A stretch of DNA of 41,936 nt from an uncultured Chlorobiaceae bacterium (lineage in GTDB: Bacteria > Bacteroidota > Chlorobiia > Chlorobiales > Chlorobiaceae), in the NCBI GenBank assembly GCA_903824295.1, contig CAIJWE010000123.1, forward strand, positions 1 through 41,936, read 5' to 3'. A model generated the notes under the pieces. The model did not search any database, had not been told where the DNA came from, and saw only the letters and a list, made by a program, of their open reading frames with translations. The translations under genes and the position numbers were made by a program. Positions within the stretch are counted from its first letter, which is position 1. Each line of letters opens with the position of its first letter. Positions 24,814-27,838 of the stretch are shown here, piece by piece.

Positions 24814-24983
24814 AGGGATAATAATTGAGAACGTGATGTCATGTAAGGCCTGCCACAAGAGTGTACGACAGCCGATCAACCGATGACAAAATTTTAAACC
24901 TTTTTTAACCAACTTATTTCAAAATCAGTTCGTTCGTCAGCTCCCGGCGCACGGACAGGGAGCACTTTTTTTCCGTCCATGAT

Positions 24984-25022
24984 TTTAAGCATAAATTAAG
25001 CTTTCTCTCATACTTCTTTAAG
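24984..25022 (+). promoter_or_regulatory. Phased TTAAG half-sites, candidate response-regulator operator
   Basis: Three near-identical half-sites lie upstream of the DUF4405-regulator-kinase operon: TTTAAG at 24984-24989, ATTAAG at 24995-25000 and TTTAAG at 25017-25022. Their starts are 11 and 22 bp apart, one and two helical turns. The first pair matches the direct-repeat layout YTTAAG-N5-YTTAAG known for PmrA/QseB-type OmpR regulators. A possible -10 (TACATT, 25034-25039) follows. The downstream regulator is an OmpR-type protein, so autoregulation is the natural inference. Confidence 0.5.
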
Positions 25023-25098
25023 AATCTCCCTGCTACATTGGAACCTGTTGAGATAAAAATGCAAACTAACCACGACATACAAAACCACTATCGACACT

Positions 25099-25647
25099 AT
25101 GGCACAAACGATTAAATCCTGGGCAACCCCTCTTGCCATTGGTTCATTTACGATTTCCGCAGTCACCGGCCTTCTGATTTTTTTTGATTTGGAAATTGGT
25201 ATTATAGAGCCTGTTCACAAGTGGCTGAGCTGGCTTCTTGTTGCCGGAGTTCTTCTCCACCTCAGCTCAAACTGGAAACAGTTCACCGGATATTTTTCAA
25301 AAAAACCTGCATTAGGCATCATTGGCGCAGCACTCATCGTTGCCGTTGCCTCCCTTCTGCCGATCTTCGGTGAAGATGAAGATGGAAAAGAGGGCGGAAA
25401 AGAGGGCACTGGAAAAGTTGCAGTACAACTTCTTGAATCATCATCGCTGGAAACCATAGCTCTGGTTACAAAAACCACGCCGAAGCTTCTCGTTGAGCAA
25501 CTTGAAAAAAACGGTATCATGGTCAAGGCGCAATCCTTAACCATTCAGGAAATTGCCAGTAACAACAGAAAAAGTGAGCGGGAGATTCTCGGTGCCGTGT
25601 TAGGCAACGTAAAAGGTTCCACAGAAAACGATGGTGACAACGATTAA
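25099..25647 (+). CDS. DUF4405 membrane protein, cytochrome-b-like helices
   Basis: The 182-residue protein has three membrane helices (about 11-29, 43-60 and 71-91). Histidines 40 and 54 flank or sit in helix 2 in the pattern PVHKWLSW and LLHLSSNWK, which in DUF4405/cytochrome b-like proteins can ligate haem. After helix 3 comes an acidic, glycine-rich linker (GEDEDGKEGGKEGTG) and a soluble C-terminal domain of about 75 residues (SLETIALVTKTTPKLL, then LTIQEIASNNRKSE). The gene starts the operon with a response regulator 20 bp downstream, so it is probably either a sensor accessory or the regulated target. Haem binding is inference from the family. Confidence 0.8.
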   Translation: MAQTIKSWATPLAIGSFTISAVTGLLIFFDLEIGIIEPVHKWLSWLLVAGVLLHLSSNWKQFTGYFSKKPALGIIGAALIVAVASLLPIFGEDEDGKEGGKEGTGKVAVQLLESSSLETIALVTKTTPKLLVEQLEKNGIMVKAQSLTIQEIASNNRKSEREILGAVLGNVKGSTENDGDND

Positions 25648-25667: not shown

Positions 25668-26345
25668 ATGAGACTTCTTATTATCGAAGATGAGCCAGGC
25701 ATAGCCGGCTTCCTCAAGGACGGACTTGAAGAAGAGTATTTTGCCGTCGATGTTGCCTACGATGGCAAAAGCGGACTTGATATGGCTCTGATCAACGAGT
25801 ATGACCTGCTCATCGTTGATTGGATGATTCCTGCTCTTAGTGGTATTGAGGTCTGCCGGCAGGTACGAAAAGCCGGCAGCACGGTACCGATACTCTTTCT
25901 GACAGCCAAAGACACACTTGAAGATATCGTGTTCGGCCTTGATGCCGGCGCCAATGATTACATAAAAAAACCCTTTGAATTTGAAGAACTGCTGGCACGC
26001 ATTCGTGTACAGTTACGAAATAAAAACAAGACTGAAGATTCATTAAGTGCCGGAAGCCTCACCATCAACCCTGTAACTCATCAGGTATTCTGCGCTTCAA
26101 ATGAAATCACCCTTACCCCCAAGGAATTTGCCCTTCTTGAATACCTTGTGCGCAACAAAGACCGGGTATGTACCCGAAGCCGGATCATTGAACATGTCTG
26201 GGATATCCATTTTGATTCCGATACCTCGGTTATTGATGTCTACATCACCTTTCTGCGCAGAAAACTTGAAGCTGCAGGATGCGGCAACATCATTCAAACG
26301 ATACGTGGAGTAGGCTATATCGTTCGCGAACCAGGCATGTCATGA
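25668..26345 (+). CDS. OmpR-family response regulator
   Basis: The 225-residue protein has a receiver domain with acidic residues E7 and D8, the phosphoacceptor Asp51 (IVDWMIP), the T/S residue and lysine in FLTAKD, and a C-terminal winged helix (LTPKEFALLEYLVRN, then DVYITFLRRKLE and TIRGVGYIV). This is the layout of PmrA/QseB/CusR-type transcription factors. The gene overlaps the histidine kinase gene by 4 bp (ATGA), so the pair is translationally coupled. It is likely to bind the phased TTAAG sites at 24984-25022 in front of its own operon. Confidence 0.95.
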   Translation: MRLLIIEDEPGIAGFLKDGLEEEYFAVDVAYDGKSGLDMALINEYDLLIVDWMIPALSGIEVCRQVRKAGSTVPILFLTAKDTLEDIVFGLDAGANDYIKKPFEFEELLARIRVQLRNKNKTEDSLSAGSLTINPVTHQVFCASNEITLTPKEFALLEYLVRNKDRVCTRSRIIEHVWDIHFDSDTSVIDVYITFLRRKLEAAGCGNIIQTIRGVGYIVREPGMS

Positions 26346-27838
26346 TTATGAAAGCGAAAAATTCTGTCAAAAAAAGTCACTCTTTCCTTAAAGAGTTGTC
26401 CGTCATGAGTTTGCGAAACAGGATCGCATTTTACTATACGATCACGACAGCAGTTTTAATCGCCCTTGTTTTTGCTACCATATACTTCACTGTTGAACGC
26501 ATTGTGTACAAGCAATTCGATGAGGAAATAAAAAAAGAGGTTTCAGAAATCCTGTCGAATGCAAATATATCAACCCACGACTTCAAAGGGTTTGATAGCT
26601 TTCAGAACCGGGATATTGATGCTGGCGATGGAGACGGTGACAACGACAATGATTCGATAAAGAAAAAAAAGGTAAACGTTGATACGGAATTTATCCAACT
26701 GGTTGACAGTACCGGACAGGTCATCAACAAATCATCCAGTCTTTCATGGTGTGTCCTTGCATTTAATCCGGACAAGGCAGGAACCGCCTACTTCAACAGC
26801 AGTTTCGGTGGTTCAATGGTCCGGCAGGCACAAGTGCCTCTTGTCAACAGGAGCGGAAAAACCCTTGGGTACCTTATTGTTGCCGTTCCCCTGAAAAACG
26901 CCATGATCGTGCTGCACGACCTGCATGATATTTTTTTCTTTTCCTTTCCGGTCATCATTTTAACGCTGTTCATGCTGACCCGCCTGATTGCCGGCAGGAG
27001 CATAAGGCCCATTGAAAAGGTTATCGCCACGGCCGAAAAAATGACACAGGCACATCTCGATCAGCGAATTCCGCTTCCCTATCATCATGACGAATTGTAT
27101 CGCCTCTCAGCCACCTTCAATGCCCTGCTCGACAGGATGCAGGATGCGTTTCAGCGTGAAAAACACTTTACGGCCAACGCTTCACACGAACTAAAAACAC
27201 CGCTTGCCATAGTAAAAGGAACTCTTGAAGTATTGGTTCGCAAACCAAGAGAGAGAGAGCATTATGAAACAAGGATTCAGTTTTGCCTCAAGGAATTAAA
27301 CCGAATGGCACGCCTGATCGACCAGTTACTCATGATTGCACGTTATGAAAGCAACAAGATGCAGCCACACATTGAAACCGTAGAGCTTTCAAAAAATCTT
27401 GAGAGTATTCGTGAAAGAATGCAGCCATCTGCCGACACAAAAAACATTTCGATCACCATCGACAACATGGAAAACGCCCGGATTGCCGCCGACCCTGGCA
27501 TGCTTGACATGATCTGCGAAAACATTCTTTCTAATGCCATAAAGTACTCTCCAACTGGATCTTCGATAGCAATAACCGTACAACGCAACGCCGATACGAT
27601 TGTCTGCAGCATAACCGATCAGGGTATCGGCATTCCTGCGGAGAAACTGCATGCCATTTTTGAGCGCTTTTACCGGGTCGATGAATCAAGAAACTCAGGT
27701 ACGGGAGGTTTTGGCCTGGGACTCTCCATCGTCAAAAAACTTGCCGATCTGCAACACATCAAGGTAGGCGTCACCAGCGAAAACAACCTGGGAACAACCT
27801 TTTCCCTCACTTTTTCAGCGGCGGAAGTTCCCTGCTGA
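26342..27838 (+). CDS. Sensor histidine kinase with Asp-rich periplasmic segment
   Basis: From the ATG at 26342 the protein is 498 residues. Helix 1 lies near residues 25-55 (YTITTAVLIALVFATIY). The periplasmic sensor region includes an Asp/Gly/Asn-rich stretch (DAGDGDGDNDNDS) followed by lysines. Helix 2 lies near 195-220, then come a HAMP domain, HisKA with His282 in the SHELKTP motif, and HATPase with N-box ENILSNAIKYSP, G1 DQGIGIP and G2 GTGGFGLGLS. All catalytic motifs are intact. The acidic stretch resembles a cation-binding loop, so the stimulus may be a metal ion; this is inference. The 3' end overlaps the convergent radical SAM gene by 32 bp. Confidence 0.95.
   Translation: MIMKAKNSVKKSHSFLKELSVMSLRNRIAFYYTITTAVLIALVFATIYFTVERIVYKQFDEEIKKEVSEILSNANISTHDFKGFDSFQNRDIDAGDGDGDNDNDSIKKKKVNVDTEFIQLVDSTGQVINKSSSLSWCVLAFNPDKAGTAYFNSSFGGSMVRQAQVPLVNRSGKTLGYLIVAVPLKNAMIVLHDLHDIFFFSFPVIILTLFMLTRLIAGRSIRPIEKVIATAEKMTQAHLDQRIPLPYHHDELYRLSATFNALLDRMQDAFQREKHFTANASHELKTPLAIVKGTLEVLVRKPREREHYETRIQFCLKELNRMARLIDQLLMIARYESNKMQPHIETVELSKNLESIRERMQPSADTKNISITIDNMENARIAADPGMLDMICENILSNAIKYSPTGSSIAITVQRNADTIVCSITDQGIGIPAEKLHAIFERFYRVDESRNSGTGGFGLGLSIVKKLADLQHIKVGVTSENNLGTTFSLTFSAAEVPC

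Follow-up and report, generated by a model that had tools for sequence, protein, structure and literature searches.

A phased array of TTAAG-type half-sites upstream of a DUF4405–regulator–kinase operon and its candidate envelope regulon in Chlorobiaceae

Which protein reads the short TTAAG repeats that precede a two-component operon in an uncultured Chlorobiaceae bacterium, and how many other genes share them? In this genome (G000), the repeats are flanked by a divergent PPK2 gene on one side and a DUF4405 gene on the other, within the window, which is the whole 41,936-nucleotide stretch of DNA analysed. An earlier note described three half-sites in helical phase at 24984, 24995 and 25017. 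All three are real and their spacings of 11 and 22 bp are correct, but each coordinate is one base low and the array is incomplete as described. On the plus strand, half-site 1 (TTAAG, 24985..24989) reads TTTTAAG in nearly all relatives, half-site 2 (TTAAG, 24996..25000) follows at offset +11, and half-site 4 (TTAAG, 25018..25022; offset +33) occupies the position of a −35 element. The note had missed a degenerate fourth member of the array, half-site 3 (CTCAT, 25007..25011, plus strand; offset +22), which is recognised by column conservation and by its enrichment in promoters unselected for it. Its consensus is CTTAG in regulator operons, TTAAT or CTTAA before other targets, and cTTAa/g family-wide. 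Also missed was TACATTG (25034..25040, plus strand), a putative −10-like element 11 bp after half-site 4. The four half-sites are phased at 0/11/22/33 bp, with TACATTG at a fixed distance from them.

The operon begins with a gene for a DUF4405 membrane protein (25099..25647, plus strand; Pfam PF14358, 31.2 bits). It continues with an OmpR/PhoB-family response regulator (25668..26345, plus strand), proposed from co-occurrence to be the box binder, and a membrane histidine kinase (26342..27838, plus strand; HAMP, HisKA and HATPase_c domains), the start of which overlaps the regulator stop. The presence of an OmpR-type regulator in this operon, as the earlier note had it, is confirmed by Response_reg and Trans_reg_C domains. 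Both the phased direct repeats at a fixed distance from the −10 element and the receiver and winged-helix regulator encoded within the box-bearing operon agree with an OmpR/PhoB-family activator promoter. Long open frames had suggested a regulator–kinase fusion, which was rejected because a stop follows after 206–232 codons in every orthologue checked. The periplasmic domain of the kinase holds an acidic insert at residues 81–122, visible in the window as a low-complexity stretch at 26582–26707 and also His-rich in some relatives. Across 80 sequences, Asp, Glu and His make up 27% of this insert vs 13% elsewhere, and 23 of the 80 have at least two His in it. Some first-gene proteins carry acidic tails.

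One account of the array is chance AT-rich repetition without function, and one result is in keeping with it: the two-site pattern TTAAG-N6-TTAAG, proposed beforehand for scanning the genome, occurs seven times in the home genome against seven for a reversed control pattern, and was rejected as a genome marker. The marker idea does hold for the three- and four-site form, as the exact triple TTAAG-N6-TTAAG-N17-TTAAG has 103 matches in 61 family genomes vs one for the reversed pattern. Examination of 60 stretches, mostly around exact triples, gave 37 non-redundant promoters chosen by three TTAAG alone. Here, TTAA (at least three of four letters) stands at +22 in 31 of the 37, compared with 0–7 at neighbouring offsets, and TA stands at +49 in 31 of the 37, compared with 0–12 at other offsets.

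A lack of conservation in orthologous upstream regions had been named beforehand as grounds for refutation. Among 80 orthologous or paralogous regulator loci, in which a box was called where TTAAG at 0/11/33 matched in at least 13 of 15 letters, the triple is kept upstream at 64, corresponding to 51 non-redundant promoters once those at least 70% alike are removed. In these 51 promoters, the columns of the three half-sites carry 1.3–2.1 bits of information, a value that drops almost to zero beyond about −2 to +57. The phased +22 half-site emerges from this table with C, T and A conserved (CTTAG/CTCAG), as does a TAC-TT element at +49 (25034). Across orthologous operons, the flanks of the box diverge while the half-sites and the −10 stay constant. 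The box-bearing regulator loci include some from Bacteroidota, Ignavibacteria and Kiritimatiellales. The phased TTAAG array is a real, strongly conserved promoter element, and the tandem regulator box suspected before this operon is borne out by its conservation at orthologous operons. Chance repetition, already refuted by these tests, is extremely improbable given the 51 promoters, the 103:1 excess over control, the fixed −10 and the hidden fourth half-site.

Behind the box, gene content varies. In six non-Chlorobiaceae loci (L074, L076, L077, L080, L083 and L084), an unrelated DUF2231 membrane protein replaces DUF4405, and at least one DUF2231 protein of non-Chlorobiaceae loci has a very acidic tail. 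The box is retained at L030, L045 and L081 though no first gene was found between it and the regulator. At L065, L070 and L073, the boxes lie 1.2–1.9 kb upstream, outside the initial 1,000-base search range, and precede an inserted cytochrome or BOF gene. In L132 (G019), a BOF/YgiW-family gene separates the box from the regulator genes, and L070 and L073 show an equally long gap. In L144 (G050:C56) and L065, the intervening gene encodes a 444-residue single-haem CxxCH protein of outer-membrane appearance; no Pfam or NCBIfam model matched it, and by inspection it is reminiscent of cytochromes of Fe(II) oxidation. Chlorobaculum-type loci (L063 at −1112, L064 at −1581, L066 at −1514 and L068 at −1122, relative to the regulator start) carry a variant array, TTAAG/TTAAC/TTAAT/TTAAG at 0/12/22/33, which differs in internal spacing and letters and possibly represents a second specificity.

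Co-occurrence bears on which protein reads the box. With the regulator scored as absent where the best match was below 40% identity or lacking, and with a site cut-off of E 1e-5, sites were found in none of the six family genomes without the regulator and in 50 of the 55 with it (Fisher p 8.3e-6, an optimistic value that overstates independence because the genomes share ancestry). The regulator is present in G016, G018 and G034 with no site in either scan, and in G012 and G040 with no site at E 1e-5. Twelve genomes of other families in Chlorobiales have no site at E 1e-5. Elsewhere in the phylum, beyond the family, only six sampled genomes have a site at 1e-4. The next most similar regulator of the home genome is only 35% identical and lies on contig C6; the profile scan found no site on C6, nor on C30 or C89, which carry other OmpR-type regulators. 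From Chlorobium to Ignavibacteria, orthologues that carry a box differ hardly at all in the helix-turn-helix of the regulator. A good upstream box is lacking at the duplicates in which the recognition helix has changed (L075, L079, L082 and L085); L081 is an exception, a paralogue with a changed helix that still has a box.

These distributions can be set against the proposal that the boxes are read by some other DNA-binding protein, for which the operon would be just one target among others. Such a protein could be another response regulator, or an alternative sigma factor for which the −35 region is unusual. Any factor could serve a box-bearing regulon, and three family genomes do have the regulator without a detected box. 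Yet none of the six genomes without the regulator has a box, and the box accompanies the regulator in other phyla, where few genomes show any site; furthermore, 11 bp direct repeats are an OmpR-family signature, and the contigs of other OmpR-type regulators carry no found site. A separate reader is therefore very unlikely, and the operon's own regulator is the favoured candidate.

Genome scans used a 60-position DNA profile; its E-values are rough, and part of its training set came from the genomes scanned. The home genome gave 11 matches; three are training sites, and of the other eight, seven lie upstream of a plausible same-strand gene start. Besides the DUF4405–regulator–kinase operon itself, three candidate targets lie on contig C85: TlpA–DUF4266–DUF3570 genes (C85:6696; named by Pfam), a gene for a Fib_succ_major-domain protein (C85:2291), and a gene preceded by two boxes (C85:9062 and 9226) that encodes a large Ig-like repeat protein. 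The two box promoters before this one giant gene (L218) are near-identical and 164 bp apart. Other predicted targets encode an ApbE-like protein followed by DsbD (C9:2943; ApbE by eye from sequence, DsbD by Pfam), a cytochrome b-like protein with a multihaem c-type cytochrome (C68:34437; family names from relatives), a Zn-ribbon/TPR/P-type cation ATPase set (C68:79372), thioredoxin and its reductase (C106:3115), and a small solo DUF4405-like protein (C103:2224, minus strand). The solo protein (L224) has 64 residues, is like the N-terminal part of DUF4405 proteins and has relatives in L147 and L152. A site at C94:12767–12816 with an odd half-site run and no clear target was excluded, as was a pair on C112 that lies inside a reading frame without an array.

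Targets that recur family-wide are the same gene sets together with cation-efflux transporters. Because the box recurs about ten times in the genome, it appears to define a regulon of some ten promoters at home, mostly for envelope electron transfer, thiol chemistry and metal transport. This regulon is apparently unreported, as the literature searched yielded no description of a response-regulator box or regulon in green sulfur bacteria.

From the computed conservation, phasing, recurrence, gene context and co-occurrence, we infer binding, positive control, dimer stoichiometry and a signal. It is proposed that 24982–25041 is an activator-dependent promoter, at which the operon's own regulator binds the four half-sites and activates both the operon and an envelope redox/metal regulon; on sequence evidence this is the probable reading. 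The kinase would phosphorylate the regulator in response to a signal at the envelope, for which a divalent metal or a redox change is the likeliest candidate. Once phosphorylated, the regulator would occupy all four TTAAG-type half-sites, which recur in 11 bp phase along a single face of the helix, as two dimers arranged in tandem, head to tail. With TACATTG 11 bp downstream, half-site 4 would stand in for the −35 element, and the bound regulator would recruit RNA polymerase by class II activation. In this way the operon would be autoregulated and some ten promoters of the same architecture switched on. Two tandem dimers acting in class II fashion would be the most economical arrangement, given that the four half-sites all face the same side of the helix and that the last takes the place of the −35. 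A metal or redox signal for the kinase is plausible in light of its acidic/His insert, the acidic first-gene tails and the cation-transporter targets.

The activating sign and the −10 function are proposed from position only, and the same four half-sites could be bound by the regulator as a repressor, with occupancy of the −35 blocking RNA polymerase until a change in phosphorylation relieves it. Half-site 4 does cover the −35 region, and autorepression by OmpR-family regulators is known. However, the −10 spacing is fixed (TA at +49, above) with no separate −35 conserved, as fits an activator that replaces the −35, whereas repressor sites usually tolerate varied positions. Repression is thus considered unlikely, and activation remains the preferred reading.

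A broader possibility, offered tentatively and with the balance leaning against it, is that in green sulfur bacteria a three-component metal/redox sensor has master control over extracytoplasmic electron transfer, reading a four-half-site code that arose independently of PmrA. Its parts would be a DUF4405 or DUF2231 membrane protein, a CusR-like regulator and a kinase with an acidic/His-rich periplasmic insert, and its reach, if the proposal is true, would cover the flavinylated DUF3570/DsbD system and outer-membrane-type cytochromes. The promoter code is exactly searchable and predicts as many as ten or so targets in a genome. Through it, the flavinylated DUF3570 and DsbD electron-transfer genes, the purpose of which is unsolved, gain a candidate regulator. 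Furthermore, the box looks like that of PmrA while its apparent reader does not resemble PmrA, a useful case for the evolution of specificity in the OmpR family.

Several known systems share parts of this design. In the promoters of Bacillus subtilis PhoP and E. coli PhoB, phased direct repeats overlap the −35, and PhoP has four repeats; the present array likewise lies over the −35, but its half-site letters differ and no phosphate genes are among the targets seen. TACATTG and the TAC-TT element of the family resemble the Bacteroidetes −7 element TAnnTTTG. By sequence, the closest subfamily for both regulator and kinase is CusR/CopR/CzcR with CusS. Among the four E. coli proteins compared, the regulator is nearest to CusR (44% identity), followed by QseB (36%) and BasR/PmrA (35%). 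Its best family match, TIGR01387 (CusR/CopR/CzcR), scores 224.7 against a cut-off of 279.2 bits, and the best NCBIfam match of the kinase, CusS-type, scores 258.6 against 292.6. In a tree with the four E. coli regulators, a separate clade holds the regulator and its orthologues, and the E. coli proteins sit on long branches of uncertain placement. Cus-type boxes are inverted repeats, whereas those here are direct, and the operon is without Cus efflux genes.

QseB boxes are tandem and AT-rich. The position of ygiW next to qseBC in E. coli is echoed by the BOF (YgiW-family) gene that separates the box from the DUF4405–regulator–kinase genes, seen only in one Chlorobium subclade. The regulator falls far below the NCBIfam equivalog cut-offs for both QseB (147 against 345 bits) and PmrA (158 against 330 bits). 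The PmrA box of Enterobacteriaceae consists of head-to-tail CTTAAG and NTTAAT hexamers with 5 bp between them, bound by an OmpR-family dimer (PMC3973317). The array shares its TTAAG-type letters, head-to-tail order and 11 bp phasing, but has four half-sites where the PmrA box has two, and its regulator lies outside the PmrA subfamily. PmrA contacts bases through Asn188 and Asn196 (PMC4660055) of its recognition helix, and in the regulator, the recognition helix of which is different, the aligned positions are Ser and Phe. Of the PmrA/QseB-type box first proposed, the letters and spacing stand; the proposed kinship of the regulator does not, its nearest relation being CusR. On the target side, TlpA-like, DUF4266, DUF3570, ApbE and DsbD are all named in the part considered here of a report on DsbD/DUF3570 flavinylation, in which Chlorobium luteolum DUF3570 is flavinylated by ApbE and that part names no regulator or promoter for these genes (PMC8238504). 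The type of system is thus a known one and the regulon appears to be new, with a PmrA/QseB label that fits the layout and not the family.
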